64,000 nt of DNA from Pararhizobium sp. IMCC21322 (lineage in GTDB: Bacteria; Pseudomonadota; Alphaproteobacteria; Rhizobiales; GCA-2746425), in NCBI RefSeq assembly GCF_030758295.1, contig NZ_CP132335.1, positions 1,898,412 through 1,962,411 on the forward strand, written 5' to 3'. Below, one piece after another: positions 214 through 55,522 of this stretch. Positions within the stretch are counted from its first letter, which is position 1. Each line of letters starts with the position of its first letter. The notes below the pieces were generated by a model. The model was not told the origin of the DNA. It saw only the letters and a program-made list of their open reading frames with translations, and made no database searches. The position numbers and the translations under genes are program-made.

Positions 214-1356
214 TTAGCGTTCCAGAGCACCGATGCCGGAGAAGCGGAAAGCTTCTTTTTCCAGAGCGTCGATTTCTTCAACGCTCATTTGATCATGGGC
301 AATCGTGATGCGCCCAAGAAAGACAAGTGGAAGCTCTGCCTCTCGACCTTCCAGATGGGCTTTGATGGCTTCCGCTGTCGCAGCACCTACATCATCGCCC
401 ATGCGCATGGGTGTTGCGTCCAGTTCACCACGGCGAATGGCATCCAGTTCCAAGCCGGTGCCACCCCAACCAGTTGAAAAGATTTCCTTTTCCTTGCCGA
501 TTGCCAATTGTGCTTCAACCGACCCCATGGACATGGCTGTATTCGCGTTGTGAATGACTTTTGCTTCCGGATAGGCCTGAAGGATCAATTGGGTACCTTC
601 AAAACCGCCTTCGCGCTGATACTCGCCATAATGCTCATAAACCACATTCCAGTTGGCTTTTTCCTTAACACAATCCTTGAAATCACCGGACCGCTGATTG
701 TCCGTAATGCCCGGAATACCGCGGTTCATGGCATAGGTCACATCTTTGCCAAGCCGATCAACCATGTAGTCACAGATCTTGAGTGCACCATAGGCTGATG
801 AAAAATCGAACCAGGCAGCTGGTTGTTGTTTCAGATATTTCAGCGGCGTGTGGAAAGCCCAGACAAAGGTAGTCAGATCCGGGTTTTGCGCCAGCTTGTC
901 GATGTTATCGGCCTGTGTGGCCAGTTCAGAAGGGCCGAAAATCACGAAATCATAGAGATCTGCATCCTGGTCCACTTGTGCAGCATAAGTTGCCTGAAGC
1001 GAATGCTCGACCTGCCGCGAAGCAAATTCGCGTGTTTCATACTCTATGCCCAACTGATCCAGCCGTTTTGTGAGTGCCAGATAGTTGCGTGCCCAGAAAT
1101 CCGAAACATCTGCTGATGGATAGATCAGGGCGATCTGCAGGGGCTTGTCCTGAGTGCCGGTATATTTGGTGGCTTCCAGTCCCGTCGCATTTTGCAGGGC
1201 TTCCAGTGCGCCATCCTGATTGACTTCACCTGGCAGATAATGCTCCCGGTCTGCAAAGCCTTCCATTTCCTTCAATGGCAGTTCTGCTGCCATTGCCGTT
1301 GAGGTCAGCAAAGCTGCCGCAAGACCCATTTTTAGTCCCAGTTTCCAGTTTTTCAT
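214..1356 (-). CDS. LuxP-like periplasmic binding protein of a CUT2-type ABC transporter
   Basis: A 380-residue periplasmic binding protein. It has a Sec signal peptide (basic start, hydrophobic core, cleavage probably after AMA near residue 23) and is preceded by GGGAGGG as ribosome binding site. The fold family is the two-lobed ribose/galactose type. The closest resemblance I recognise is LuxP, the autoinducer-2 receptor: IYPSADVSDFWARN at 78-91, GWGG at 296-299, then EL-DAI, G-LD, MRM-DD and AEAI between 303 and 331. In LuxP numbering, S79, W82, R215, W289 and R310 have counterparts here (S85, W88, R222, W297, R318). Q77, N159, S265 and D267 do not, so the ligand is probably a related but different sugar. 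It is the last gene of the operon, behind ATPase and permease; no LuxQ-like kinase is nearby. Confidence 0.85.
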   Translation of the reverse strand: MKNWKLGLKMGLAAALLTSTAMAAELPLKEMEGFADREHYLPGEVNQDGALEALQNATGLEATKYTGTQDKPLQIALIYPSADVSDFWARNYLALTKRLDQLGIEYETREFASRQVEHSLQATYAAQVDQDADLYDFVIFGPSELATQADNIDKLAQNPDLTTFVWAFHTPLKYLKQQPAAWFDFSSAYGALKICDYMVDRLGKDVTYAMNRGIPGITDNQRSGDFKDCVKEKANWNVVYEHYGEYQREGGFEGTQLILQAYPEAKVIHNANTAMSMGSVEAQLAIGKEKEIFSTGWGGTGLELDAIRRGELDATPMRMGDDVGAATAEAIKAHLEGREAELPLVFLGRITIAHDQMSVEEIDALEKEAFRFSGIGALER

Positions 1357-1417
1357 TTTTTTCCCTCCCGGAATTTGCAGTCATTTTAAAATTTTGACTG
1401 CGATGAACTTGTTGTTT

Positions 1418-2551
1418 TTAGCCGCTTGGGTTTGGTGACCCGCCAAGCATAAGGCTGACAATGCTCAGGATGATCGCTGCGCCAACGATGTAGCCCGTCA
1501 GCCTGAGAAGTTTTCGATTGTCGGGATTGCCCATTGCGGCCCTGATGCCACCAGACCCGTCGCGGTCTTTCTTTTGCAGCCATGTGTAAAGGGCCACCGA
1601 GAAAATGATCACCACACCTGAGGCGACAGATTGCCAGAAGAACTCGATGCGCAGTGTCACAAGTGCATTGATCATCATCGACAACAGCAGCACACCCGCC
1701 AGTGAACCGACGATGGAGGCGCGACCGCCAAACAGCGATGTTCCACCCACAACGACCGCCGCAATGACATGCAGATTGAAATAGGGCGCGGAGGTTGCCT
1801 GAATGGCGTTCAGCTTGCCCGTCAGCATAATGCCGGCAAGGGCGGCCATGGTTCCCATCAGCACATAGGCGTAGACCCGGTGCCGGTCGACAGCGATGCC
1901 GGTCATATCGGATGCTTCCGGATTTGAGCCAATGGCAATCGTGTAGCGCCCGAAATGGGTAGATTTCAGCAGTACATAACCGGCAATGAAAGTCAGCACA
2001 CCAATCACGACGGGCGTGGGCAGAAATATCAAAGACTGACCCCGACCAATTTCGGTGATCATGTCCGGAAAGCGTGCAAGCACAAGCCCTTTGGCAATGA
2101 CCAGGGCAAAGCCGCGATAGACAAGGTCCATCGCCAGAGTGCCGATCAAATCCGGCACTTTGAACTTGGTGATGACGAGGCCGTTGATCAGCCCCATCAT
2201 GGCGCCAAGGCACAAGGCAATGAGAGCCGCTGACCAGGCCGGAAAACCATATTGTTTGATCAGAAATGCCATGATGATCGACGACAGGGCAGCAACTGAG
2301 CCGATAGACAAATCAATGCCGCGCTGGGTGATGACAAATGTCATCGCCATAGCCATTGGCATATAGAGCGCTGCATCGAGCAGAATTTGATTGAGGTTGG
2401 AAAGCCGGAAGTAACGCGCAGGCTCCACAACGCCCATGAACACAATGATCATCAGAATCATCGCCATCGGGCCAAGAAAGCTGACATAAGGGGCCAGACG
2501 TTCTGACAGGGTTTGCGGGCCGCTTTCGGCGGATGAATCAGATTGTTTCAT
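1418..2551 (-). CDS. sugar ABC transporter permease, RbsC/CUT2 type
   Basis: A 377-residue polytopic inner-membrane protein with about 9-10 hydrophobic segments. The RITQRGIDLSIGSV-type block near residues 74-87 and the GGTSLFGG block near 272-279 are hallmarks of the BPD_transp_2 permeases that serve ribose, xylose and similar sugars. It would form the membrane channel, probably as a homodimer, with the ATPase encoded 6 nt upstream and the binding protein encoded downstream. The tight spacing implies translation from one mRNA. The substrate is unknown; the LuxP-like binding protein suggests a small furanosyl or pentose-like ligand, which is inference. Confidence 0.9.
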   Translation of the reverse strand: MKQSDSSAESGPQTLSERLAPYVSFLGPMAMILMIIVFMGVVEPARYFRLSNLNQILLDAALYMPMAMAMTFVITQRGIDLSIGSVAALSSIIMAFLIKQYGFPAWSAALIALCLGAMMGLINGLVITKFKVPDLIGTLAMDLVYRGFALVIAKGLVLARFPDMITEIGRGQSLIFLPTPVVIGVLTFIAGYVLLKSTHFGRYTIAIGSNPEASDMTGIAVDRHRVYAYVLMGTMAALAGIMLTGKLNAIQATSAPYFNLHVIAAVVVGGTSLFGGRASIVGSLAGVLLLSMMINALVTLRIEFFWQSVASGVVIIFSVALYTWLQKKDRDGSGGIRAAMGNPDNRKLLRLTGYIVGAAIILSIVSLMLGGSPNPSG

Positions 2552-2557
2552 GGGTCT

Positions 2558-3319
2558 CTAAGCCGCCGTTCTTGTGCCGACGATCAGGCCAAGCACTTCT
2601 TCATTTGTTGTGTCCGCAGTCTTCACGACACCGGCACACTGGCCACGACGCTGCACATGAATGCGGTCCGAAATTTCGAACACATCATCAAGTGAATGGG
2701 AGATGACGATAATGGCCAGGCCCTGCTGCTTCAGCACTTTGATCAACTCAAGGGTCCGGGCCGTCTCCTGAGGCCCCAGCGCTGCTGTCGGTTCGTCCAT
2801 GACCAAAACGCGCAGATCATCGTGACGGACAGCACGGGCAATTGCGACAGCCTGTCGTTGACCGCCGGACAGGCTCTCCGTCGCAACATCCATGCTTTTC
2901 AACTGAACACCCAGCCGGTCTTTCAGGACGCGGGTGGCTTCAGATTTCATCAGTTTGTTGTCGAGGGCTTCGAACCCGAGAACTTTTTTCGTCAACTCGG
3001 CACCGAGAAACAGATTTTCCGCTGGTGTCAGATGATCGGCAATTGCCAGGTTCTGATAGACCGCATCAATGCCATTCTCGATGGCATCGGAATGGCTGGC
3101 CATTGAAAAGGGCTTGCCATCAAGTTCAATCGACCCTTCAGTCGGCTGATACACACCTGTCAGGATTTTGATGAGCGTCGATTTGCCGGCGCCATTGTCA
3201 CCGACGATTGCCAGCACTTCGCCTGCATAGGCCGTAAGATCGACATGGCTTAAAGCGACGACGCCGCCAAACCGTTTGCTGATGCCGCGCATGGCAACGA
3301 TAGGCTGATTCTCAACCAT
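2558..3319 (-). CDS. sugar ABC transporter ATP-binding protein, single-domain CUT2 type
   Basis: A 253-residue ATPase subunit. It shows Walker A GDNGAGKST, the signature LSGGQRQAVAIARA, Walker B LVMDEPTAALG and the switch histidine in ISHS. It has one nucleotide-binding domain, like FrcA and unlike the double-domain RbsA. The open frame extends 7 codons further, but those codons contain the GGGAGG ribosome binding site, so I place the start at the internal ATG 3319 (MVENQP). It is the first gene of a three-gene minus-strand operon (ATPase, permease, binding protein), an order in which the binding protein comes last. Two perfect palindromes upstream suggest local repressor control. Confidence 0.9.
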   Translation of the reverse strand: MVENQPIVAMRGISKRFGGVVALSHVDLTAYAGEVLAIVGDNGAGKSTLIKILTGVYQPTEGSIELDGKPFSMASHSDAIENGIDAVYQNLAIADHLTPAENLFLGAELTKKVLGFEALDNKLMKSEATRVLKDRLGVQLKSMDVATESLSGGQRQAVAIARAVRHDDLRVLVMDEPTAALGPQETARTLELIKVLKQQGLAIIVISHSLDDVFEISDRIHVQRRGQCAGVVKTADTTNEEVLGLIVGTRTAA

Positions 3320-3466
3320 TCTTATCCTCCCAAAAGGCAAAGGGTATCCGTGTCCGAAAGCGACGAGCGCTTGCAGATTTCAGCTTTTTGCTGGCTTTAA
3401 AGAATCCCTGTTCAAGCACAATTGACTGGCAATCGGACCTGATACCTCCACCTCAGAGTCCTATAC

Positions 3467-3478
3467 GTTACCGGTAAC
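3467..3478. promoter_or_regulatory. palindromic operator candidate upstream of CUT2 operon
   Basis: GTTACCGGTAAC is a perfect 12-bp palindrome 148 bp upstream of the ATPase start. The central CG and flanking GTTA/TAAC arms are typical of LacI/GalR-family operators. The cognate regulator is not obvious in the window. Confidence 0.55.
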
Positions 3479-3489
3479 TTGCGTCAAGT

Positions 3490-3501
3490 GTTATCGATAA
3501 C
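3490..3501. promoter_or_regulatory. second palindromic operator candidate
   Basis: GTTATCGATAAC is a perfect 12-bp palindrome, centre to centre 23 bp from the one at 3467-3478. The two share the outer GTTA/TAAC arms. A pair at about two helical turns fits two repressor dimers on one face of the DNA. Confidence 0.55.
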
Positions 3502-3880
3502 TTTTTCTGGATGCTCTGATGGCCCCAGGCTGGTTAAACCTGAATCAGAACAGCAGGAAAGCCTCGTAAACACCTGATTTGAATCTTCTAATCAGCCTTC
3601 TGGAAAGACATTGTTTTCCGTTTCGATTGTCTTGAAGCCAGCGCGCTCGCGGCCACTGCTCGGGCGCATGATACGCTGCATCCTGCCCAATCGAAGGTGG
3701 CTAAACATGGCCTGGTGAACTCAGATCAAAGGAGCTTTAAGGTTTGACATGCGCAAAAGTGACGTGTTTGGCAGCAAAAGCTTTATTCTGCAGCGAAGCG
3801 CTGTTAAAAGCCCCCACAGATAGACAACCGGCATTGGTATCGATGATACATTTATCAAGACGAACCATACGAATTACTGG

Positions 3881-3928
3881 CCCGGCCTCCCTTTGAGGCG
3901 CGGGCAGGTTTGCGCGCGGGGAGCCGGG
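3881..3928 (+). promoter_or_regulatory. nested GC-rich hairpin in the ileS 5' region
   Basis: CCCGGC (3881-3886) pairs with GCCGGG (3923-3928), continued by TCCC (3888-3891) with GGGA (3919-3922) around one bulged C. An inner GCGCG/CGCGC pair completes the stem. There is no T-run, so it is not a simple terminator. It may be a leader structure, or the end of a transcript arriving from elsewhere. Confidence 0.4.
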
Positions 3929-4013
3929 TTCCACACACAACTGCAGCGTAGAGCAACAAGTGGTCACTGGCCCTTTTACGCTCTGACACTTTCTCCTGAC
4001 TTTAGAGTTGATA

Positions 4014-7000
4014 ATGGCTGAAAATACCAATGCGCCAGCGCGCGACTATTCCAAAACACTGTTTTTGCCGAAGACCGATTTTCCAATGCGGGCGGGTTTG
4101 CCCAAGAAGGAACCTGAAATCCTGTCCTTCTGGGACCGGACGTCTTTGCAGAAACAAATCCTGAGCAACACCATGCTGAACGGTGCCAGCGCTCAAGAGC
4201 GCCCCAAATTCGTGCTTCATGATGGCCCGCCTTATGCGAATGGCAATCTGCATATCGGACATGCGTTGAATAAGGTTCTGAAGGACATCATTTGCCGGTC
4301 CAAGCAGATGCAGGGCTTCCACGCGCCTTATGTGCCGGGTTGGGATTGCCACGGCCTACCGATTGAATGGAAGATCGAGGAACAATATCGCGCCAAGGGC
4401 AAAAACAAGGACGATGTTCCCATCAACGAATTCCGTAAGGAATGTCGCGAATTTGCCGAGCATTGGATTGGTGAGCAATCGAAGGAATTTCTGCGGCTGG
4501 GCGTGCAGGGGGACTTTGACGATCCTTACAAAACCATGGCTTTTCACGCTGAGGCGCGGATTGCCGGTGAGTTGATGAAATTCGCCAACACGGGTCAATT
4601 GTACCGCGGCTCCAAACCCATCATGTGGTCGGTGGTCGAGCGGACGGCTCTGGCCGAAGCCGAAGTCGAATACCATACTTACGAAAGTGATACGATCTGG
4701 GTAAAATTCCCGGTCATCAAAGGGCCCGATGCATTGCAGGGGGCCAGCGTGGTGATCTGGACAACCACACCCTGGACGATCCCGGGTAGTCGCAGTGTGT
4801 GTTTCTCGGGAACTGTGTCCTACGGCCTTTATGAAGTTTCCGCTGCAGAGAATGATTTTGGTCCGCAGCCCGGAGACAAGCTGATCTTTGCCGATGCTTT
4901 GGCAGAAGAATGCGGATCAAAAGCAAAAGTTCAGCTGTCGCGGATTTCTAACGTGTCGGCAGATGATCTGACCGGCATGGTCCTGCATCATCCACTGCAA
5001 GGTATGGGCGTTGAGGGCTATCAGTTTCAGATCCCGATGCTGGAAGGCGATCATGTAACCGCTGAAACCGGTACAGGCTTCGTACACACAGCACCTGGCC
5101 ATGGCCGTGATGACTTTGAAATCTGGGTTGCCAAACGCCGCGACATAGCTGCGCTCGGCATTGATACCTCCATCCCCTTCACGGTGGATGATGCCGGGTT
5201 CTTCACTGAAGATGCGCCCGGCTTTGGCCCGGCTGCAGAAGGTGGTGCTGCCCGTGTTATTGACGACAAGGGCAAGAAGGGCGACGCCAACCAGCGTGTC
5301 ATCACAGCGCTTATCGGCCAGAGCAAGCTGTTTGCGCGCGGCCGCCTGAAGCATGATTACCCGCATTCCTGGCGCTCCAAGAAACCGGTTATCTTCCGTA
5401 ACACCCCGCAATGGTTCGTCTATATGGACGAAGATATTGAAGGGCAGGCGGACGATACGCTGCGTCGCCGTGCCTTGAACGCCATTGATGCCACACGTTT
5501 CTATCCCGATGCCGGACAGAAACGATTGCGCTCGATGATCGAAAACCGCCCCGATTGGGTGCTGTCCCGCCAGCGTGCCTGGGGTGTCCCGATTGCAGTC
5601 TTTGCAGATGAGGACGGCAATTTGCTCGTCGATGACGCGGTTAATCAGCGCATTCTGGATGCATTTGAGACCGAAGGCGCAGATGCCTGGTTTGAAGCAG
5701 GTGCCAAGGAACGTTTCCTCGGCAATGATCATGATCCCGACAAGTGGGAACCCGTGACAGACATTCTGGATGTCTGGTTCGACAGTGGATCGACGCATTC
5801 CTATGTTCTGGAAGATCGGCCTGAATTGAAATGGCCGGCAGATCTGTATCTGGAAGGCTCTGACCAACATCGTGGCTGGTTCCATTCATCGCTTCTGGAA
5901 AGCTGCGGCACACGAGGGCGCGCGCCTTATGAAGCTGTGCTGACCCATGGCTTTACGATGGATCAGGATGGCCGGAAAATGTCGAAATCTCTCGGTAATA
6001 CCGTCGCGCCCCAGGATATCATCAAACAATATGGTGCCGATATTCTGCGTCTTTGGGTGGCATCGGTTGATTATTCCGAGGATCAGCGTCTGGGACCGGA
6101 AATCATCAAGACGAATGTCGAATCCTATCGCAAACTGCGCAATTCAATCCGCTGGATGCTGGGTGCCTTGACCCACTTCAATGCGGAAACGGATCGGGTG
6201 TCCTATTCTGAATTGCCAGAGCTGGAGCGCTATATGCTGCATCAGCTCTCCACTTTGGAAGACACCGTCAATGAGGGCTATGACGCCTATGATTTCAAAA
6301 AGGTGTTCAGTGCGCTGTCGCGTTTCATGAACCTTGATTTGTCGGCGTTCTATTTTGATGTGCGTAAAGACACATTGTATTGCGATCCCATCTCCAGCCT
6401 TACCCGCAAGGCCGCGCTGACGGTGATTGACCAGATCTTCGACAATCTGGTGCGCTGGCTTGCCCCGATCATTCCGTTTACCAGCGAAGAAACCTGGTTG
6501 TCGCGCCATGACAGGCTGGATGTATTGGGTGCAGAAGAGGGCCAGACAGGTTCGGACAGTGCAACACCATCTATCCATCTTCAGGATTTCAACAAACTTC
6601 CCGAAGAATGGCTGAATGATGATTTGTCTCACAAATGGGGCAAGATTCGCGCTGTGCGGATGGTTGTCACCGGTGCCTTGGAAATCGAGCGACGTGAAAA
6701 ACGCATTGGCTCGTCTCTGGAAGCAGCGCCACATGTCTATCTCGAAGGCGACGCGTATAGTGGTGTGGAAGAACAGGCTGATTTCGCGGATATCTGCATC
6801 ACCAGTGGCATTGATGTCAAAACCGGTGAGGCCCCGTCGGACGCGTTTCGTCTGGACGAAGTGCCGGGTGTTGCCGTGGTCTTTGCCGCAGCTGATGGGC
6901 AGAAATGCGCACGCTCCTGGAAGTTTTCCACTGAAATTGGGCAGGACCCGGATTATCCGGAGGTCACGCTGCGCGATGCGCAGGCACTGCGCGAACTGGC

Positions 7001-7025
7001 CGCTGCCGGTCTTTTGGAGGCATAG
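4014..7025 (+). CDS. ileS: isoleucyl-tRNA synthetase
   Basis: A 1003-residue class I aminoacyl-tRNA synthetase that charges tRNA-Ile and edits valine. The HIGH signature is at 80-83 in [12 protein letters not shown] and KMSKS at 655-659. The editing domain contains the TTTPWTIP motif, and the C-terminal part carries the anticodon-binding domain. I prefer ATG 4014 over the TTG two codons upstream. The usual C-terminal zinc finger is degenerate: one cysteine remains in GQKCARSW and no second CxxC follows, so this copy probably does not bind the second zinc. It is followed after 3 nt by lspA, the common proteobacterial pairing. Confidence 0.98.
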
Positions 7026-7028
7026 CTT

Positions 7029-7562
7029 GTGAAGACTGGTCCCCAGTGGCCCCAAAGTCTGGCCTTGTGGAGCCCCAGCGCAGCTTTTGTTTTGCGCTGG
7101 GCCGCCATTCTTTTGATTCTGGATCAGGCATCAAAATACGGAATTCTGTATGGGCTTGGGCTTCGGCAAGGGCAGAAGATTGTTCTGAACCCGTATATGG
7201 ACCTGTTGATGGTGTGGAATCGGGGGATCAGTTACGGCCTGTTTCAACAGAACAGTGACATTGGACGGTGGCTCCTGGTCGGTGTGGGTCTGGCCGCATG
7301 TGTGGCCATCTGGATCTGGGCGAACCGTGTCCAGACAAAATGGTTCCGCATAGGCGCAGCGCTCGTGATCGGCGGTGGGCTTGGAAACACCGTTGACCGG
7401 GTGATCTATGGCGCGGTCGCGGATTTTGTTTCGCTGCACGCGTTTGATTTTTATTGGTATGTCTTCAACGTCGCTGATGTTGCAATCGTTGCAGGATTCG
7501 TGCTGCTCCTGTATGACATGATCTGGTCGGGATCGGCCCCTGAGAAGCCGGACGGGTCTTAA
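7029..7562 (+). CDS. lspA: lipoprotein signal peptidase (signal peptidase II)
   Basis: A 177-residue inner-membrane aspartyl protease that removes signal peptides from prolipoproteins after diacylglycerol attachment. There are four hydrophobic segments. The catalytic aspartates are D123 in GNTVDRVIYG and D150 in FNVADVAI; the N-terminal LDQASK block is also typical. Translation starts at GTG 7029, 3 nt behind ileS, so the two are very likely cotranscribed. The next gene encodes a lipoprotein that would be a substrate. Confidence 0.97.
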   Translation: MKTGPQWPQSLALWSPSAAFVLRWAAILLILDQASKYGILYGLGLRQGQKIVLNPYMDLLMVWNRGISYGLFQQNSDIGRWLLVGVGLAACVAIWIWANRVQTKWFRIGAALVIGGGLGNTVDRVIYGAVADFVSLHAFDFYWYVFNVADVAIVAGFVLLLYDMIWSGSAPEKPDGS

Positions 7563-7652
7563 TTGCGCCATTTTGGTTGCACAAAAGCGTCCGGTAGTGA
7601 AAGTTTGTTTAAGGTTTTCTGTCAAAAGCGCATTTGCAGAATGGCCATATGA

Positions 7653-8297
7653 GTGAGAACGGGTGTTGCATTGACCGTCACGAAGTCCTTAAAACGTGCC
7701 CTTAAGGCAACGGCAGCTTTTGGCATCTTGGCCGCGCTTCTGGCGTTGGCTGGGTGCAATACACCGACTTATGGCACCGGTAAATCGCCTGAAATGTCCA
7801 TGATTCAGGAATTGACCGGAAATCTTGGTGCCGGGCCGAAGAAAAAAGAGCCGATTGAATATCAGGCCCGTTCAGAACTGGTGATTCCGCCATCTTCGCA
7901 ATTGCCGGCTCCAGAAGAAAAGACGGCTTTGTCACAGTCAGCTGCATGGCCGAATGATCCCGACCGAAACAAGCCGGCTGCAAATACTTCGGGTGAAATT
8001 CCAGAGGAGTTTCGTCGCGGACGTCTGGCCCGAGGCTCAACCCATGCTGCGGACCCGAATGTCAGCCCTATCGATGTAACCGAAATGAACACGGCACAGC
8101 GTCTGGAAGCCCAGCGTAAGTTCCGTGAGCAGCGCGCGTCGATGAACAGCTTGAACCCGACAGAGCGTAAATATCTGACTGATCCACCGGTCGAGTATCG
8201 CGTGCCATCAGCCAATGCACCTCAGCCGGATGATTTTGAAGAAAGTACCGAAGCCAGAACCCTGTTCGGGTCTCTCTGGAAACGCTGGCGCGACTGA
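7653..8297 (+). CDS. putative lipoprotein of unknown function
   Basis: A 214-residue secreted protein. A basic start and hydrophobic core lead to the lipobox LALAGC near residues 29-34, so the cysteine is probably lipidated by the pathway that includes the upstream LspA. The mature part is proline-rich and hydrophilic, predicted mostly disordered (IPPSSQLPAPEE, WPNDPDRNKP). I recall similar lipoproteins behind lspA in other alphaproteobacteria, but I cannot assign a function. The start is GTG 7653; a later TTG at 7671 would still keep the signal sequence. Confidence 0.75.
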   Translation: MRTGVALTVTKSLKRALKATAAFGILAALLALAGCNTPTYGTGKSPEMSMIQELTGNLGAGPKKKEPIEYQARSELVIPPSSQLPAPEEKTALSQSAAWPNDPDRNKPAANTSGEIPEEFRRGRLARGSTHAADPNVSPIDVTEMNTAQRLEAQRKFREQRASMNSLNPTERKYLTDPPVEYRVPSANAPQPDDFEESTEARTLFGSLWKRWRD

Positions 8298-8374
8298 CCT
8301 GCATAAAATCTATAATGTGACGACCGAATCACCGGGGTGAAGATACCTCGGCATTTGTGCTGGGAGTTCATGCA

Positions 8375-10225
8375 ATGATCATCCGACAATTGACGGAAGG
8401 CACCATAAACCGCATTGCCGCTGGCGAAGTGGTGGAGCGGCCTGCCAGTGTGGTCAAGGAACTGGTCGAAAACGCGATTGACGCTGAAGCGACCCGAATT
8501 GACATCGTCACCGCAAGCGGCGGCAAGACCATGCTCAGGGTTACCGATAATGGCGTTGGCATGAACGCGGATGACCTTGCACTGGCGGTTGAACGCCACT
8601 GCACCAGCAAGCTCAATGAAAATGATCTGTTCGATATTCAAAGCCTCGGCTTTCGTGGTGAGGCATTGCCGTCAATCGGCTCGGTCGCAGAATTATCCAT
8701 CAAGACCAGACAGCAAGGTGCAGACACTGGCTGGGCATTGACAATCGATGGTGGGCAGAAATCGGCTGTCAGCCCGACGGCACTGAATACGGGCACCCAG
8801 ATTGAAGCGCGGAACCTGTTTTTCACCACGCCAGCGCGCCTCAAGTTTCTGAAGAGCGATCGCGCTGAAACTTCAGCCATTACCGACGTGGTAAAGCGCC
8901 TGGCGCTGGCGCATCCCAACATCCGGTTTTCCCTGGCAGGACCAGACCGCACAGCACTCGATTATGGCGCAGCCAGTGGAGATGAGGCGCTCCTGTCGCG
9001 CATTACCCAGGTTATGGGAAAAGAGTTTCGTGACAATGCGGTTGCCATTGATGCGGTGCGCGAAGGTGTTCGACTTACCGGCTTTGCAGCCCTGCCAACC
9101 TTTAATCGCGCCAACACGCTTCAGCAGTTCTTCTTCGTCAACGGACGCCCTGTCCGGGACCGGCAATTGCTGGGTGCCTTGCGCGCAGCCTATTCCGATT
9201 TCCAGTCAAAACACCGCCATCCCGTGGCGGTTCTGTTTGTCGACATCGACCCACATCAGGTGGATGTCAATGTGCAACCCACCAAAGCCGATGTCCGCTT
9301 TCGGGATGCAGCGCTGGTGCGCGGCCTGATCATTGGCGCAATCCGCGAAGCGATGGCGGCAACCGGCCACCGCTCGGCCACCACAGGCGGCGCAGAGGCG
9401 CTGGCGCTGCTTCAGCGGCGTCACATTCCATCAACACGACCATCAGACTGGCAACAATCGGCTTTCAGGCCCGACTTTCAGGCTGCACCAGACGCGCGAG
9501 ACGCCATGCAGGGCGACAGGTTTGCTGAGCCCTCACAGGCTGCTTACGAGGCGTTTGGTGCCAATGCCGGCTTCGAGGGCTTTCAAAACCCGTCAGCCGA
9601 CACCAGGCCTATGCAGGCGGCGCAGTATGAACCAGAGGCGGCTCATCTGCCGCTGGGCGCAGCACGAGCGCAACTCCATGAAAATTATATTGTCGCCCAG
9701 ACCGAAGATGGTCTGGTTATCGTTGATCAGCATGCGGCCCATGAAAGGCTGGTCTATGAACGGCTGAAGGCCGCACTGGCAAAGAAAGAAGTCGCGACCC
9801 AGATGCTGTTGATACCTGATATCATTGATCTGCCGGAAGATGATGTGGATCGTCTGGAAGCACGTGCTGAAGAACTCAACCATCTGGGCCTGCATCTGGA
9901 ACGTTTCGGGCCAGGGGCCATCTGCGTGCGTGAAACACCCGCTCTGCTGGGCGACACGGATGTGGGCGGTCTGGTGCGCGATATTGCCGATGATCTAGCC
10001 GAACTGGACGCGTCCACACGGCTTGAGGAACGGCTGCATTTTGTGGCTGCAACCATGGCCTGCCATGGCTCTGTGCGCTCTGGCCGACGATTGAGAGCGG
10101 AAGAAATGAACGCTCTTTTGCGCGACATGGAGGCAACGCCAAACTCGGGGCAATGCAACCATGGGCGTCCGACCTATGTGGAGCTGAAACTGGCTGACAT
10201 AGAAAAACTGTTTGGGCGTCGCTGA
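8375..10225 (+). CDS. mutL: DNA mismatch repair protein MutL, endonuclease type
   Basis: A 616-residue GHKL ATPase that links mismatch recognition by MutS to strand removal. The N-terminal ATPase has the VENAIDA helix (31-37), DNGVGM (58-63), TSKL and GFRGEAL. The C-terminal dimerisation domain carries [12 protein letters not shown] (451-462), which fits the DQHA-x2-E-x4-E endonuclease motif. It also carries ACHGSVR (562-568) and CNHGRP (594-599), the zinc-site motifs of nicking MutL proteins. This is expected where MutH and Dam are absent. I place the start at ATG 8375 behind GGGAG rather than the in-frame GTG 8357, which lies just before that site. Confidence 0.97.
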
Positions 10226-49058: not shown

Positions 49059-49075
49059 CTGAATTGAAGAAATTG

Positions 49076-49648
49076 ATGCCAAGACCAACAGCAGATCAAA
49101 TCCGGGCGAAAATCCGGGCGGCCCTTGTGCAAGAGGTGGCAGAAAAGGGGATCGGGTCCGTCGCCATGGGGTCGGTTGCCAAACGTGCGGGCGTTTCGCC
49201 CGGTACGATCTATCTCCATTTTGAAAACAAGGATGATCTGCTTCAAAAAATCTATCTGAAGCTGAAGGCCGAATTCCACGCCACGATCGTGGCACCGAAA
49301 GATGAAACGGATTCAGCTGTGATGATCCGTCAAATGTGGAACAACATGTTTGATTTTGTCGCCAAAGACCCGTTCGGGTTTTTGTTTTTGGAAGCTGGCA
49401 GCCTCTCTCAAATCCTGACCGAGGAACAGTCCCGCCAGATCGCTCACATGCCGCTTGAGATAGCAGCTCTGCTGCAGCGCGTCATTGATGACGGGACACT
49501 GGCAGACCTTCCAGTATCAACTGTCATCGTGATGTTGGTGGCCCCGGCCATGCATCTGGCACGTCACCGGCTTTTGCAGGGAAACACCATCACGCAGGAC
49601 GAACTTGATCGCACCTTTGAACGTGTCTGGTTGTCCATTACCGCCTGA
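49076..49648 (+). CDS. TetR-family transcriptional regulator
   Basis: A 190-residue regulator. The N-terminal helix-turn-helix is GSVAMGSVAKRAGVSPGTIYLHFENKDDLL; the rest is the helical ligand-binding domain. I take ATG 49076 (MPRPTADQ) over a TTG 12 bases earlier. A perfect palindrome precedes the start. The SDR gene follows 27 nt downstream and is the likely partner; the ligand is unknown. Confidence 0.93.
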   Translation: MPRPTADQIRAKIRAALVQEVAEKGIGSVAMGSVAKRAGVSPGTIYLHFENKDDLLQKIYLKLKAEFHATIVAPKDETDSAVMIRQMWNNMFDFVAKDPFGFLFLEAGSLSQILTEEQSRQIAHMPLEIAALLQRVIDDGTLADLPVSTVIVMLVAPAMHLARHRLLQGNTITQDELDRTFERVWLSITA

Positions 49649-50545: not shown

Positions 50546-51220
50546 CTAGAATTCGACATTGTTGATCACCTTGCCATCGACGGCCCGGTACATTTCCTTA
50601 TGTTCCGCATAATATCCGCTTACGGTCAATTCGATCTGGATCGGGCCTTCTTCCAAATTCATGAAGTACCAGCCGTGATAACCGGGGAAGGGCGCAATGA
50701 ATGATCCACTCTGACCAGTGCCTTCGCCTTTGCTGTAGGCCTGCTCAAAACCTTCAGGGTAATTGGGTGCGTCTGCGCTGGACGGGTGGCCATGGAATTC
50801 GTAATAGACGCCGTCGCCCTTGGCATTCAGGATTTTCCAGGAATAGAGCAGCGCCGTGTCTTGCGGCAGAATGAATTTATGCTCCATTTCACCCAGATCC
50901 TCCAACTCCAGAACAATGGTTTCGGACTTGAAGGGGGCGTCTTCCAGATGCAGCAATCCGCGAATGGAGCGGTTGATGTGTTCAGCCGTCAGGTCATATT
51001 CTTCCACATTGAAGTTTAATGACTGACCAAAATCTTTGGAGGTCGCGGGCACAGGCGTATCCTGAGCCAGAGCGGAAACACCGGTCAGCTTGCCGATACC
51101 CGTCGGGTCGATGCCGTATTCGGCTGGCAATATGAATGCAACCAGAAGCGCCACCGCGACAAATGCAGAGATCAGGAGCCGAATGCCGATGGAACGTGCA
51201 GTGTGTGATGTGTCAGTCAT
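50546..51220 (-). CDS. membrane-anchored periplasmic protein of the HupE cluster
   Basis: A 224-residue protein with one N-terminal membrane helix (residues ~12-32) and the sequence LPAEYGIDPTGIGKLTGVSALAQ straight after it. I know that block from proteins annotated as transmembrane anchor proteins near HupE genes. The rest is periplasmic: a beta-rich domain with DTALLYSWKI, GVYYEFHGHPS and FPGYHGWYFMN. Its histidines and aromatic residues could bind a ligand or metal. It is the last gene of the five-gene minus-strand cluster, 8 nt behind hupE. Confidence 0.78.
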   Translation of the reverse strand: MTDTSHTARSIGIRLLISAFVAVALLVAFILPAEYGIDPTGIGKLTGVSALAQDTPVPATSKDFGQSLNFNVEEYDLTAEHINRSIRGLLHLEDAPFKSETIVLELEDLGEMEHKFILPQDTALLYSWKILNAKGDGVYYEFHGHPSSADAPNYPEGFEQAYSKGEGTGQSGSFIAPFPGYHGWYFMNLEEGPIQIELTVSGYYAEHKEMYRAVDGKVINNVEF

Positions 51221-51228
51221 AACTCACC

Positions 51229-51930
51229 TCAAATAATGATGAAGCCAACAATTTGCAGGCCGAAAAGCAGCAGACCTGCGCCGAAGAGAACGATGTTTGC
51301 GTTGCGGGCCACCAGCGGAAAATTATGCAGGCTGCGCAGCCATGAGAATAAAACCAGCAGAAAAGTCAGGGCAATGATCTGGCCAATTTCAACACCGATG
51401 TTGAAATAGATCATATTGGCGACCAGCCCATCCTGTGACAAAGACAGGTCCTGCAATTTGGTCGACAGGCCGAAGCCGTGAACGAGACCAAACCCGAATA
51501 CGGCAATGCGGGGATCGAGAAAGCGGATTGTCCCGAGATTTTCCAGCGCCTTGTAGCACACGGACAAACCGATAATGGCATCCACCAGATAGGCATTGAT
51601 TTGAATGCCGGACAGCACCCCAAACAAAAGCGTGATGGAATGGCCGACGGCAAACAGGCTGACGAATTTCACAACATCTTTCAGCTCGCGCAAGAAAAAG
51701 ATGACGCCGGCCAGATACAGCAGATGATCATATCCGGTGACCATGTGCTTGGCGCCCAGATACAGGAAGGGAAACGGGTGAACGCCCTCAATATTCATGA
51801 GGTAAGTTTGGTCGCCTCTGGCAACGCCATGGCCAAACGCCTGAGAGCTGACAAGGATCAGGGCGCAGGCAAGCCAGGTAAGCCAAAGCGCCTGGCCTGT
51901 AGAATTACGTTGGGCGGACCGCGATACCAC
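51229..51930 (-). CDS. HupE/UreJ family membrane protein
   Basis: A 233-residue protein with about six hydrophobic segments and a signal-like N-terminus ending near HGVARG. Family signatures are HMVTGYDHLLYLAGVIFFL, FAVGHSITLL and FGFGLVHGFGLS, whose histidines and aspartate are the expected metal ligands. The frame opens at 51993, but I place the start at GTG 51930, 2 nt after the upstream stop. HupE/UreJ proteins import nickel or cobalt, and some relatives have been linked to copper. Neither hydrogenase nor urease genes are present here. Confidence 0.85.
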   Translation of the reverse strand: MVSRSAQRNSTGQALWLTWLACALILVSSQAFGHGVARGDQTYLMNIEGVHPFPFLYLGAKHMVTGYDHLLYLAGVIFFLRELKDVVKFVSLFAVGHSITLLFGVLSGIQINAYLVDAIIGLSVCYKALENLGTIRFLDPRIAVFGFGLVHGFGLSTKLQDLSLSQDGLVANMIYFNIGVEIGQIIALTFLLVLFSWLRSLHNFPLVARNANIVLFGAGLLLFGLQIVGFIII

Positions 51931-51932
51931 GT

Positions 51933-52418
51933 CTACAAATCTTCGACGTAAGGGATAATCCGGCCCAGAACGATAATGCTTGTCCACAAGCATAGCGAAA
52001 ATCCCGCCACAAACTTTGCATCGGCAGACAGTGTGGATGAATCGGCCCCTGCCTGTATCTGCGGCCTGATCCGGACCGTGAAATACAGGGCGTTCAGCCC
52101 GGCAATCACAATCAGTACCATTTTCAGCCTGAACGCGATGTTGACGAAGTAGCGCCCGGGATCGCCCACAACAAACAAAGCGCCTGTCAGTGCGTTGAGG
52201 CCAAAGCCGATCAGCGTGACAATGATAAATGTGTCGACCAGTTTCAGCGGCACTTTACGCGCCACGCCGATGACACGAAGATCGACAAACAAAAGCGAGC
52301 CGAACAACAGGCAGAGCCCAAGGAAATGTGCCATTTCCATGGATGGCCAGACCCAGCTATTGCCGGTGATAAAAGCGTGGAGGTCAGTGGCTCTGAGCCA
52401 GATTATTGCATCATTCAT
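51933..52418 (-). CDS. DUF6644-like membrane protein, paralogue 1
   Basis: A 161-residue protein with four hydrophobic segments. The start HAFITGNSWVWPSMEMAHFLGLCLLFGSLLFVDLR contains the conserved W-P-x3-H pattern seen also in its neighbour. I assign it to DUF6644 from memory. Four helices with paired histidines resemble small cytochrome-b-like or copper-resistance-D-like proteins, so heme or metal binding is possible but unproven. The hupE gene follows without a gap; the second paralogue lies 12 nt upstream. Confidence 0.72.
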   Translation of the reverse strand: MNDAIIWLRATDLHAFITGNSWVWPSMEMAHFLGLCLLFGSLLFVDLRVIGVARKVPLKLVDTFIIVTLIGFGLNALTGALFVVGDPGRYFVNIAFRLKMVLIVIAGLNALYFTVRIRPQIQAGADSSTLSADAKFVAGFSLCLWTSIIVLGRIIPYVEDL

Positions 52419-52430
52419 CTGCTGATCTCC

Positions 52431-52889
52431 CTAAAACACATAGCCGATGAGACGGCCCACAATCAGTGCACCAACCCAGATCAGAACCGCGATAGCGGCC
52501 AGTGTGCGGTGTCCGGAGGTCACCAGCCCATCGCCCTTGATGCAGGTTTTGACGAGATGTCGGGTCAGCAGCAGGCCGATAATGACCATGACAATCTTGA
52601 TACGAAACGGCCAGTTGAAGGCCAGCGACGATGCGCTGCCAAAGAACAGGGCGGTGCCGGACAGCAGGTTGACCACAAAGCCAGCCTGAGCGATGTGCCA
52701 ATAGGATGCGAGCGAGGTGACGGGTATTCCCGACGCAAACCCGAGAGTGCGAAAACTCAACATCAGCGAAATGCCAACCAGCGTTGCCATGCCCAGCGCA
52801 TGAAGTGACAGCACGATCGGGTACCCCCAGATGGAGCTTGAGACCATGGTCCCAAGCGCCGAATCCTCGAGCATGAACAGAAAATCCAT
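52431..52889 (-). CDS. DUF6644-like membrane protein, paralogue 2
   Basis: A 152-residue protein with four hydrophobic segments, similar in layout to the next gene: SSIWGYPIVLSLHALGMATLVGISLMLSFRTLG, then YWHIAQAGFVVNLLSGTALFF and FRIKIVMVIIGLLL. H31 and H66 are in helices and could be heme or metal ligands. The two paralogues are 12 nt apart and probably form a heterodimer. This is inference from gene pairing. Confidence 0.72.
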   Translation of the reverse strand: MDFLFMLEDSALGTMVSSSIWGYPIVLSLHALGMATLVGISLMLSFRTLGFASGIPVTSLASYWHIAQAGFVVNLLSGTALFFGSASSLAFNWPFRIKIVMVIIGLLLTRHLVKTCIKGDGLVTSGHRTLAAIAVLIWVGALIVGRLIGYVF

Positions 52890-53029
52890 TGATACCTCTT
52901 GTCTTTTCTAGCGGATGCAGACGACCTGATGCAGGCGACCTGTCTCAGACACGATCTTTTTGGACTGTGCCGACCAGGAGTGTTCGTTTCATCCTGATCG
53001 GCATTTTTACAGCGTCTGTTCAGCGCAAA

Positions 53030-54115
53030 TCAGTTGTTGCTGAACGCTTCTTCAACAGTCAAATCATCACAGTTGAAGGGTTCAAATGCATCGTCTGTCT
53101 TAACGGACTTTTGAAGATGCGAATGCGGCTCGGCCAGATATACCGGGTCGGTGATTGTGTACTCATGCACCAGTTCACCGGCATCATCGACATAGAAGGT
53201 TTCAGCGATTTCCATCTGGTCGCTGTGAGGAATCGAGCGCGTGGACCGCCCACCAATGGCTTCAAGAAAGCCCGGTGCAAAGCCCTTCGTCATGACTTCC
53301 AGCTTGTTGCCATCCCATTTTCCAACAGAATAGCCGGTTACACTTGGCTCGATGGTGCCGGGAAACGCGCCGTCAATATGGATGGTGCGCTCGACATCCA
53401 TGAAGCCATAAGTCAGCTTCACTTCGCTTGCAGATTGCTCGATCTTGTTGATCATCTGGTCAAAGCGATAGTCAAGAATGATGTTGGTTGGCTTGCAGCT
53501 GAAGCGCGGATTGTCTTCTGCAACCCAATTATTGGCAGCATCCATGGCAGCCTGCGTCAGGACATAGGCCGGAGCGCGTCCGGCATAGGGCAGAGGGGGG
53601 CCATTTGCGATCGGCTCTGACCAGTTGCCTGACAGGTCCGGCGTATCACTTGCAGGTTCCTGACCGGCAGCGTTCTGGGCAGCGTCGGTGCCCTTTTCTG
53701 GGTTGATGAAATTTCCATCATCATCAATTTCGCCATAACGGATCAGCGATCTGCCGTCGGCAAAAGTGATGGTTTCCGTGTAACAGGTGGTCGGCTCTGT
53801 GCGTGCAGGTGATCCGGAAATTGTGATTTCCGAACCAATTGCGAACATGTCGGTGGTCCAGCCTTTGCGTTTCAAAAGGCTGCCGGAGCGCAGCTCACAG
53901 CGCCACTGTTCCACCGCGCCAGCGTTATTTGTGACATCGAAATAAACATAGGAATGCGGGTTCACAAAGCGCACCCGGGTGACGATGCCCGTTTTGTCCA
54001 ATGTCTTGGACAGGTCAAACTGCCCGTTGACGCCGTGATGCGCGACGCTGGCCGTGGTGATAAATGCACCGCTGCAAAGCGCGACCATGCAGCCAATAAG
54101 AATTTTTTTACGCAT
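53030..54115 (-). CDS. DUF6152-domain secreted protein
   Basis: A 361-residue exported protein. The signal peptide ends near SVAHHG, where the mature N-terminus begins with two histidines. The first ~100 residues match the DUF6152 pattern: a short beta domain with GIVTRVRFVNPHSYVYFDV and WRCELRS. The remainder has a second beta-rich domain with VGKWDGNKLEVMTKGF and FYVDDAGELVHEYTITDP. ATG 54115 has GGAGG upstream; the frame opens 25 codons earlier. It is the first gene of the minus-strand cluster and is divergent from the PepSY-type gene. Function is unknown; exposed histidines invite a metal-binding role. Confidence 0.75.
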   Translation of the reverse strand: MRKKILIGCMVALCSGAFITTASVAHHGVNGQFDLSKTLDKTGIVTRVRFVNPHSYVYFDVTNNAGAVEQWRCELRSGSLLKRKGWTTDMFAIGSEITISGSPARTEPTTCYTETITFADGRSLIRYGEIDDDGNFINPEKGTDAAQNAAGQEPASDTPDLSGNWSEPIANGPPLPYAGRAPAYVLTQAAMDAANNWVAEDNPRFSCKPTNIILDYRFDQMINKIEQSASEVKLTYGFMDVERTIHIDGAFPGTIEPSVTGYSVGKWDGNKLEVMTKGFAPGFLEAIGGRSTRSIPHSDQMEIAETFYVDDAGELVHEYTITDPVYLAEPHSHLQKSVKTDDAFEPFNCDDLTVEEAFSNN

Positions 54116-54412
54116 TGATAGTTCCTCCAAATTTCGCCGGAGATCCGGCAGATGTTCAGCCCCTTGATTGAAAATCAGCATTGCGTTCAAGCTGGCAGAA
54201 AATTCAATCTCAAATTGTTTATGCGTTTCCCATCCTCAGGAGCGTATTCAGTTTTTTGCAGTTAGATCTCGATATAAAACGATTTTTTTGATAATATAAA
54301 TTAATTATCGGTAGAAATTCATTAATATAGGACTAAAGTAAGGGAGTAGGCGACAACCGGAGGGTGCGCCTTAATGTTAGTATGCTAACTTAAAAAACAG
54401 ACTTAAGATACC
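54116..54412. other. divergent promoter region of DUF6152 cluster and PepSY gene
   Basis: About 300 bp, strongly AT-rich in its middle (54260-54340). It contains the inverted repeat GTTAG-TATG-CTAAC at 54376-54389, 24 bp before the PepSY gene start. I see no cobalamin-riboswitch-like conserved blocks and no small gene. A single site here could regulate both directions. Confidence 0.5.
54376..54389. promoter_or_regulatory. inverted repeat upstream of PepSY gene
   Basis: GTTAG and CTAAC are perfect reverse complements with a 4-bp spacer. The position near the expected -10/+1 of the PepSY gene suits a repressor site. The cognate regulator is unknown. Confidence 0.4.
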
Positions 54413-55522
54413 ATGTTTTTGAAAAAAATTATGAAGACGGCGCGTATCATCCACCGCTGGGTAGGCGCGTCTCTGGCAGTATTGCTCATTCTTGTCAGCG
54501 CAACGGGAACGTTGCTGATCTGGAAAAATACATATCTGGGCTTTGTGTTTCCTCAAAGTGCATTGGCGTTCGAACGCAGCATTGAGCCCATGGCAACAAT
54601 CGCCTTATCGGCTGATGCGGCCTTTGGGGAAGCAGCCATAAGTCGGATCGAGTTTGGTGATCAAAGCTTTGGCCTCAGCAAAGTCTATCTGGTGGATAAA
54701 CGCTCTGCCTTTATCGCACCTGATGGACAAATTCTTGCCGTTTGGGAGCCTAATGGGCGGTTTGAAGATTGGTTGCTCGACCTGCATCATCGCTTGCTGA
54801 CGGGAACCATTGGGCTTTACATCATCGGCTTTACAGGCATTGCTGCACTTGTGTTGATAGGTGCAGGTTTGATCGCCTATTGGCCGGCCCGGCGCACCTG
54901 GAGATCGGGTCTGGCGCTACGTAGTCTCAAGCGTGCTGAGCTCTTGCGCCTGCACCGCAACACCGGGATATTGCTGGCGCTGCCGATTGCTGCTGTGATC
55001 CTTGCAGGTGTCGTTCTGACGTTCCCCGAAACATCACGCGCGGCATTCTTCTGGCCCTATGAAAATGATGACAGCTATGGTCAGAATTTTGGCGATGGTG
55101 TTGACGCTGTAAGCGGCAGCAGCGAAACCTCATGGCCAAAAGTTCTGGCGCGGGCCGCATCCGTTTTCCCCGGTGCCGAGATCACCGGTCTCGCCTGGCC
55201 CCAAGGAACCGGTGTGAAGCGCGTCTTAATCCGTGAGAGCGGCGAGTGGGCCGAGCACGGCAACAGCTCCGTCCACATCACGGATTATGACGGCTATATG
55301 GATTTACGCATTGATGCGCGCACCTTGCCGATTGGCGAAAAATCATACAATTTTTTGGGGGATCTGCACCGCTCTCACTTGGGAGGTTGGGTATATAATA
55401 TCATCCAAACACTCATCGGTCTGGGCCTGATCTGTCTCGGTGTTATTGGTCTGATATCATTTATAGGCGCGCGTTTTTCATTTTCTTCGCCGCAGCGATC
55501 TACATACAAAAAAGCGCGGTAG
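54413..55522 (+). CDS. PepSY-associated TM helix protein (putative membrane reductase)
   Basis: A 369-residue membrane protein. It begins IIHRWVGASLAVLLILVSATGTLLIWK, the first helix of PepSY-TM proteins, and has further helices near 145, 195 and 340. The paired histidines in DLHHRL, LHRNTG and DLHRSHLGGW are typical of heme- or iron-linked members such as ferric-siderophore reductases. A later start at 54431 is possible. It is divergent from the DUF6152-HupE cluster, which suggests a common role in metal reduction and uptake; that is inference. A terminator overlaps its stop codon. Confidence 0.85.
   Translation: MFLKKIMKTARIIHRWVGASLAVLLILVSATGTLLIWKNTYLGFVFPQSALAFERSIEPMATIALSADAAFGEAAISRIEFGDQSFGLSKVYLVDKRSAFIAPDGQILAVWEPNGRFEDWLLDLHHRLLTGTIGLYIIGFTGIAALVLIGAGLIAYWPARRTWRSGLALRSLKRAELLRLHRNTGILLALPIAAVILAGVVLTFPETSRAAFFWPYENDDSYGQNFGDGVDAVSGSSETSWPKVLARAASVFPGAEITGLAWPQGTGVKRVLIRESGEWAEHGNSSVHITDYDGYMDLRIDARTLPIGEKSYNFLGDLHRSHLGGWVYNIIQTLIGLGLICLGVIGLISFIGARFSFSSPQRSTYKKAR

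Follow-up and report, generated by a model that had tools for sequence, protein, structure and literature searches.

Five adjacent genes on the minus strand of the window, the whole 64,000-nucleotide stretch of DNA analysed here, form a set that is kept in marine bacteria of two classes and seems to be undescribed, though one half of it also occurs in known metal-resistance gene groups. The five genes are tentatively read as one transition-metal module of the periplasm and inner membrane, which would most likely serve Ni2+/Co2+ uptake through the permease hup. The observed basis for a metal module consists of conserved linkage, gene fusions, a shared candidate operator, and the metal-gene company of the hup-anc pair; the metal, the direction of transport, the ligand sites, and the order of steps are what we infer. 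Through this linkage, four function-less protein groups (DUF6152, its calycin-like half, DUF6644, and the "transmembrane anchor protein") become connected with metals and with a single permease family, so that they can be tested jointly. The genes and their divergent neighbour are laid out as follows (positions within the window):

d6152, 53030..54115, minus strand: exported protein with a DUF6152 (OB-like) domain and an FABP/calycin-like barrel; predicted mature start HHG
m1, 52431..52889, minus strand: DUF6644-like four-helix membrane protein
m2, 51933..52418, minus strand: DUF6644-like four-helix membrane protein, a paralogue of m1 (23% identical)
hup, 51229..51930, minus strand: short HupE_UreJ_2 permease with a probable GTG start; His opens the predicted mature end
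anc, 50546..51220, minus strand: one membrane helix and a GOLD-like periplasmic jelly roll
pepsy, 54413..55522, plus strand: PepSY_TM membrane protein, divergent, present with some cluster versions only
intergenic region shared by d6152 and pepsy, 54116..54412, no strand: A+T-rich (62% A+T)
candidate operator, 54376..54389, no strand: palindrome GTTAGTATGCTAAC, 23 bases before pepsy

All six open reading frames, described in the earlier note as five minus-strand genes opposite a PepSY gene, were confirmed to be present, and comparison with the congener G002 showed purifying selection on each of them (dN/dS: d6152 0.037, m1 0.091, m2 0.055, hup 0.179, anc 0.064, pepsy 0.097). The most likely start of d6152 is the ATG at 54115, which is preceded by GGAGG, and the TTG at 54190 is disfavoured. 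For hup, the sequence points to the GTG at 51930, immediately behind m2, as the most likely start, because the upstream part of the ORF overlaps m2 and contains a TGA in G002, where the codon matching this GTG is ATG.

Of 13 named loci from Alpha- and Gammaproteobacteria, 11 share all five genes with this gene order, and the hup-anc pair is present in all 13; these loci, including one from the congener and two from a single isolate, are biased to close relatives because they were found by exact peptide words. The linkage on which the earlier note had staked its reading is thus conserved. The cluster is a union of two halves, hup-anc and d6152-DUF6644, each of which is also found apart. In class-wide stretches, hup and anc are together in 17 of 18, and they are fused in two genomes (L039, L040), while d6152 and m1 form one ORF in L049 and L138. 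The d6152-DUF6644 half without hup-anc was seen in G605 and G683, a point counted against the uptake reading; the 20 genome stretches inspected were taken from the best rows and represent 17 genomes. Plasmids gave seven partial matches to d6152, and no hup relatives were found in phages.

The permease itself is assigned securely, since hup matches HupE_UreJ_2 (PF13795) at 165.6 bits against a cut-off of 24.5. Six residues are invariant in its 16-row alignment (H35, H63, D69, H70, H98, and H152), and an H-x5-D-H motif lies within the first conserved membrane stretch. The invariant H35 stands behind A-H in the 16 rows, and the predicted mature end starts with His. About 15 residues separate this His from the first conserved stretch, so that hup is a short form with no N-terminal Ang domain in the same chain; a long HupE form is encoded elsewhere in the same genome (L042). 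HupE of R. leguminosarum, a nickel permease of PF04955, is of the same permease type and presumably shares the H-x5-D-H stretch, but hup belongs to PF13795 and this genome has no hydrogenase that could be found.

Its partner anc has no family match at E ≤ 0.1 in Pfam or NCBIfam, and the naming of anc and its relatives through Pfam was dropped, as it returned scattered weak names only. The structure model of anc (pLDDT 80.9) gave a GOLD-like match to 5azw with a Z score of 11.6. In plasmid records this protein type is named "transmembrane anchor protein", and relatives occur in 401 such records, Klebsiella accounting for 148 and Enterobacter for 55. The cluster suggests that HupE/UreJ-2 permeases are often paired with a separate anchored periplasmic subunit. 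The anglerases Ang-1 and Ang-2 likewise combine a HupE/UreJ-2 permease (PF13795) with a periplasmic domain and have a mature N-terminal histidine, which is predicted here (PMC12537917). Unlike in anglerases, the periplasmic parts are separate proteins of other predicted folds (GOLD-like anc, OB and calycin-like d6152), the permease is short and has no Ang domain in its own chain, and two DUF6644 proteins are added.

A role in metal handling is supported by the company of hup-anc elsewhere and by the mature-end histidines predicted for hup and d6152. Published studies of HupE/UreJ-2 proteins support it too (PMC12537917, PMC5557971); those that have a His1 domain bind both Cu and Ni (PMC12537917). 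Elsewhere the pair adjoins metal-sensing repressors, exporters, and CzcA pumps; clusters of metal-sensing repressors and of MFS proteins are found next to it in 7 of 37 loci each. NicO was also found beside it, as were small His-rich proteins, at 11 loci judged by eye. On plasmids, RND, DmeF, or repressor-MFS genes accompany hup-anc in 8 of 8 regions inspected, which were chosen from the top rows.

Import is not the sole reading, because hup-anc relatives sit in metal-resistance operons, and this was counted against uptake. The module might instead retain or buffer surplus Ni/Co (or Cu) within the periplasm, partnering efflux and not feeding the cell, which we consider somewhat unlikely. Such a stress role would agree with the plasmid relatives that accompany CzcA, DmeF, NreB-type MFS proteins, and metal-sensing repressors, and with the Sphingobium operon containing the HupE/UreJ gene IL54_0275, which is not expressed in LB and is switched on by Ni (PMC5557971). 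The HupE/UreJ gene of that resistance operon was the most nickel-induced gene of the strain, which was also counted against uptake; the likeness of operon 63 of Sphingobium ba1 to the window is known for the permease only (PMC5557971). In Ni/Co resistance operons on plasmids and in class-wide loci, the same permease type is followed by the same anchored protein type, but the window has d6152, m1, and m2 instead of relatives of CzcA, DmeF, NreB, or repressors. None of nine exporter and repressor proteins gave a tblastn match in the 64-kb window, although the hup and anc controls did, and hup-anc therefore has no exporter or metal-sensing repressor near it there, as a Ni/Co resistance operon would. 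In 12 other loci (the 11 five-gene loci and L054), the sole match was one RND protein at the edge of L052. The lack of exporter and repressor relatives in the window was counted for uptake, together with urease and CobN in the genome. UreC, at C1:1480081, and the cobaltochelatase CobN both lie outside the window, so that the earlier statement that no hydrogenase or urease gene is present is true at most of the window; no NiFe hydrogenase large subunit was found in the genome.

The other half of the cluster begins with d6152, in which DUF6152 (PF19649) matches residues 44-131 of the 386-aa ORF at 76 bits against a cut-off of 27. Behind the signal peptide, 14 of 15 rows of the untrimmed alignment show HHG, which forms the predicted mature end, which agrees with the earlier description of a secreted, histidine-fronted protein; the invariance of H1-H2-G3 in the trimmed alignment is by construction, because the rows were trimmed to begin at HHG. 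The barrel in its structure model (pLDDT 73.5) matches 5h9a with a Z score of 10.4, a fold like that of retinol- and fatty-acid-binding proteins. The VIA-align list covers mainly residues 131-317, and the OB-like assignment is therefore based on weak Foldseek rows. Profile sequence searches of solved structures with d6152, anc, hup, and m1/m2 gave no match up to E 1.

For m2 and m1, the DUF6644 (PF20349) scores of 23 and 14.3 bits fall below the cut-off of 27. They are named DUF6644-like because, although they themselves stay below the cut-off, DUF6644 is matched at E ≤ 0.5 by 15 of the 22 members of their joint alignment, the best at 2.8e-10. The earlier DUF6644 label is thus weaker than the other family labels, and in place of the several helix histidines proposed, the alignment keeps one invariant histidine, H31. 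A CopC/CopD filing was dropped, with one weak CopD graze among the 22 members.

The barrel fold raises the very unlikely alternative that d6152 uses its calycin-like half to carry a ligand, lipophilic or a metallophore, and that the module imports a metal-ligand complex or the ligand, with metal release as a side step. Its resemblance to retinol- and fatty-acid-binding proteins (Z about 10) fits this, as do TonB receptor and PepSY_TM genes next to DUF6644 genes in L140, L143, and L149. However, a common fold proves no ligand, the window has no relative of those TonB receptors, and HupE proteins are recognised as ion permeases. The missing TonB receptor relative was counted against the uptake reading as well. 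One locus unites a TonB receptor, PepSY_TM, a long HupE, and two DUF6644 genes, which was counted for uptake.

The divergent gene is a clear PepSY_TM member (PF03929; 108.7 bits, cut-off 28.8), with H14, H181, and H319 invariant in seven sequences. It shares its Pfam family with the PepSY_TM reductases FoxB (PDB 7abw) and CrpH (PMC13038864); H14, H125/126, and H181 align with histidines of 7abw, whereas overall similarity is weak (E 0.0072) and H319 falls outside the aligned stretches. PepSY_TM genes are commoner than chance near DUF6152-DUF6644 genes (5 of 45 sites against 0.63 expected, in hand-compiled counts of DUF6644 sites that treat tandem genes as a single site), which was counted for uptake. 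A relative of the window protein, which was the sole query (the PepSY of L054 came from Pfam), is present in just 2 of the 11 five-gene loci, and the PepSY_TM-bearing versions are those of the window, the congener, and one Rhodobacteraceae. In Yoonia maricola and Jannaschia donghaensis, two culturable species with the five genes, no window-type PepSY was found.

In a further reading, which is improbable, the module provides periplasmic enzymes or respiratory oxidases with copper, and PepSY reduces copper, the role proposed for CrpH. In its favour, Ang-1 and Ang-2 bind Cu with a Kd of about 60-75 nM (PMC12537917), PepSY_TM proteins and TonB receptors are linked to copper through CrpH and CrtA (PMC13038864, PMC12914433), and copper genes are found close to hup-anc in L168 and close to the anchor gene in L101. 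Nevertheless, Ni/Co exporters (DmeF) and RND pumps are the neighbours best attested for hup-anc, and PepSY_TM is no constant member of the cluster. The reported preference of N-terminal domains for copper over nickel was counted against nickel or cobalt uptake (PMC12537917).

For Ni2+/Co2+ uptake, exported d6152 would pick up the metal or a metal complex, possibly at its predicted His-His-Gly mature end, and the m1/m2 pair would be its membrane partner. The permease would be hup, using the His/Asp of its first conserved membrane stretch and the predicted mature-end His, and anc, an anchored subunit on the periplasmic side, would assist uptake next to it. Ni2+ or Co2+ is the most likely cargo, which would move inward and supply urease and cobalamin synthesis; where present, the PepSY_TM protein probably reduces the metal to release it. 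The earlier proposal of capture, reduction, and import thus remains plausible for capture and import, but reduction fits PepSY-bearing versions only and is placed outside the core because so few five-gene loci have a relative of the window protein. Import of heme is unsupported, as nothing observed points to a heme cargo.

The intergenic region is A+T-rich compared to the window (46%), as had been noted. Neither a riboswitch nor a known metal-regulator site could be recognised in the window and seven loci, which was counted against uptake; Rfam at gathering cut-offs gave nothing in the window and two tRNAs only in the seven loci, and a promoter/terminator scan gave about as many matches as shuffled sequence. 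The Ferric_reduct protein adjoining the G002 palindrome had no match in the genome of the window at E ≤ 1e-10, in a search without a positive control. One further genome copy of the palindrome precedes a second d6152 gene. A degenerate pattern finds two sites in the whole genome (5.25 Mb), each ahead of a d6152 gene, and none with a reversed control, compared to an expectation of about 0.2 from base composition (worked out by hand) and 0.009 from a third-order model with a training set of about 93 kb; this count is no independent test, because the pattern was written after three sites had been seen. In an elaborate and unlikely form of the importer, a carrier with an OB-like HHG metal site and a calycin-like ligand barrel would dock on an m1/m2 heterodimer, a PepSY reductase would free the metal in some versions, HupE and the GOLD-like anchored subunit would import it, and one dedicated regulator would control the cluster and the second d6152 gene through the palindrome. 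Position alone makes the TetR gene at 49064-49648 a candidate for the regulator that binds the palindrome.

The stretch 50546-55522 lies in a genome of a single 5.25-Mb contig and holds six genes, five on the minus strand and one on the plus strand, in agreement with the earlier note:

Minus strand, start corrected to ATG 54115: d6152, exported DUF6152 protein
Minus strand, following d6152: m1 and m2, DUF6644-like four-helix membrane paralogues
Minus strand, start corrected to GTG 51930: hup, short HupE_UreJ_2 permease
Minus strand, following hup: anc, membrane-anchored periplasmic protein
54376-54389, intergenic, 23 bases ahead of pepsy: palindrome GTTAGTATGCTAAC, candidate operator
54413-55522, plus strand: pepsy, PepSY_TM protein

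The HupE_UreJ_2, DUF6152 and PepSY_TM assignments of that note were confirmed above the Pfam cut-offs. Its DUF6644 label for m1 and m2 is weaker: both fall below the cut-off, and 15 of 22 aligned members match DUF6644 at E ≤ 0.5. No family was assigned to anc by Pfam or another family search. Comparison with the congener G002 shows purifying selection on each of the six (dN/dS 0.037 to 0.179), and thus they are not chance ORFs.

A scan of the hup protein against one genome per species, which is biased to close relatives, gave 13 named loci, including the congener (L044) and two from the same isolate (L046 and L053); the nearest named relative among them is an alphaproteobacterial MAG. In tblastn searches, d6152-m1-m2-hup-anc keep order and strand in 11 of the 13 and hup-anc occur in all 13, showing that the linkage of these families is real and conserved. 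Carriers include the alphaproteobacteria Yoonia, Jannaschia, Loktanella, Pacificibacter and Harenicola and the gammaproteobacteria Leucothrix arctica and Paraglaciecola marina; this distribution, together with the 81% identity of the L. arctica hup, suggests that the cluster spread by horizontal transfer. A relative of the window's PepSY protein adjoins the cluster in two of the 11 five-gene loci (L044 and L046). In the hup tree, the five-gene hups and L054, a sister locus with a PepSY_TM gene upstream of hup-anc, form one clade (support 100/99), and the five-gene group alone is poorly resolved (90/37). The congener also carries a decayed second copy (L034, G002:C4:265000-282000, 7338-9682), in which the m1 match ends at residue 72, the hup match starts at residue 141, m2 is absent and d6152 and anc are still present. 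An uncultured Rhodobacteraceae has two differing tandem d6152 genes ahead of its cluster (L051, 6527-8975).

The cluster is a probable HupE/UreJ-2 metal module, assembled from two halves that also exist separately. The hup profile matches in 22 of 289 class genomes, and in 18 stretches fetched for full-strength short-form matches, own genome excluded, anc directly follows hup in all except L099, with m1 and m2 absent by tblastn; in G303, a DUF6644 profile did detect two such genes, roughly 10 kb away from hup-anc. That genome brings together DUF6152, calycin-like, DUF6644, hup-anc and PQQ-dehydrogenase-type genes within about 25 kb (L098 and L142, G303:C1:804000-833000), one PQQ protein being confirmed by Pfam. 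Outside the genus, anc stands beside hup in six of seven same-order genomes, the exception having a partial hup (G023), and hup and anc are a single protein in G037 and G012. Among 37 compared loci, seven have a repressor cluster as neighbour and seven an MFS cluster; Pfam names two members of the former Trns_repr_metal and two of the latter MFS_1, and one locus also has NicO. In 11 loci, a small exported protein rich in His is encoded close to hup (called by eye, 6 to 11% His).

The other half is rare in its full form: full-length d6152 was found in 1/289 class genomes and 3/398 phylum genomes, whereas DUF6644-type proteins occur in 41/398. In two genomes (G605 and G683), d6152 is accompanied by two DUF6644 genes or domains, but about 16 kb of sequence there contains no hup-anc. 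In 20 DUF6644 stretches taken from the best-scoring rows, a DUF6152 domain shares the stretch in 12 and lies no more than 20 bases away in seven. G670 (L149) has the OB-like and calycin-like parts as individual genes ahead of two DUF6644 genes, in the same order as in the window's fused version, although an additional gene intervenes. PepSY_TM is present no more than 10 kb from 5/45 DUF6644 sites versus 0.63 expected (Poisson P ~5e-4), or 4/44 with the own genome removed (P ~0.004), and a TonB receptor adjoins it in L140, L143 and L149. The most telling locus, L143 (G562:C1:618500-635000, 926-8687), is an independent gathering of the same families: TonB receptor, PepSY_TM, cytochrome-c-like and PPIase-like ORFs (called by eye) and a long HupE whose predicted mature end has a His, all pointing away from two DUF6644 genes.

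The mature d6152 model (pLDDT 73.5, pTM 0.71) has two beta domains, of which the first is predicted to be OB-fold-like from weak Foldseek rows, and residues 133-321 resemble retinol-/fatty-acid-binding proteins (5h9a, Z 10.4, 2.6 Å over 115 residues). Directly after the signal peptide, 14 of 15 aligned rows have an HHG motif, and H29 does not vary in 14. In the anc model (pLDDT 80.9, pTM 0.58), a single membrane helix is joined to a jelly roll that resembles GOLD domains (5azw, Z 11.6, 1.8 Å over 90); across 21 rows, H143 is invariant and H182 almost so. H35, H63, D69, H70, H98 and H152 of hup are conserved in 16 rows. H14, H125/126 and H181 of pepsy align to histidines of 7abw, which we take to be FoxB, at a weak E of 0.0072, and H319 lies outside the alignment.

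The pattern GTTARYATRYTAAC has two sites in the whole own genome, the palindrome and a site 106 bases ahead of the likely ATG of a second, solitary d6152 gene; reversed as a control, the pattern has none there. The chance of a one-mismatch copy of the first two sites in a given 300 bp is about 7e-6 under a third-order model. G002 has three palindrome sites, at the cluster, a Ferric_reduct and FAD-oxidoreductase pair and a putative outer-membrane lipoprotein gene; congeners G001, G003 and G004 and the remaining five-gene loci have none. The palindrome is a candidate control site shared by the cluster and the second d6152 gene; this is suggestive, as the pattern was partly derived from these same sites. 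At the G002 pair (L163, G002:C12:84000-98000, 7076-9840), it lies about 300 bases before the Ferric_reduct membrane protein, followed by the FAD oxidoreductase; the own genome has no match to that Ferric_reduct protein at E ≤ 1e-10.

Since urease and cobaltochelatase genes are present, the own genome needs both Ni and Co; no NiFe hydrogenase was found in it. The observation of the earlier note, five linked minus-strand genes facing a PepSY_TM gene, proved right. The most likely function is transition-metal uptake, Ni or Co first. Histidine-fronted proteins would capture the metal in the periplasm, and it would enter via hup, with anc assisting. According to PMC12537917, the N-terminal His domain of HupE/UreJ-2 proteins binds Cu and Ni and is proposed to feed the permease; the word 'anglerase' occurs only there within the literature searched. 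General HupE statements appear in PMC10142276 and PMC8487243, and PMC4771312 reports that 90% of the Roseobacter genomes it covered carry homologues of hupE/ureJ. No paper naming DUF6152 or DUF6644 was found in the literature searched, where the set appears undescribed.

The chief rival is protection from metal stress, because hup-anc relatives reside in resistance operons. Of 72,556 plasmid records, 455 contain a relative of hup and 401 one of anc. Each of the eight plasmid regions examined encodes CzcA, DmeF or the combination of an MFS transporter and a metal-sensing repressor; a HupE gene precedes an anchor-type or hypothetical protein in seven, and DmeF adjoins the anchor gene in the eighth, pSinB. 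Records of 'transmembrane anchor protein' relatives include 148 Klebsiella and 55 Enterobacter plasmids. PMC5557971 reports that the gene most strongly induced by Ni in Sphingobium ba1 is a HupE/UreJ gene, which shares its operon with RND and NreB genes. Against stress protection, 12 exporter, repressor and receptor proteins match nothing in the 64-kb window, where hup and anc controls match, and the 12 other loci yield a single RND match, at the L052 edge. Their sole receptor match lies about 8 kb from hup in L054.

Less probable readings are copper supply, for which PMC13038864 and PMC12914433 connect both PepSY_TM and TonB receptors with copper, and the uptake of a metallophore.
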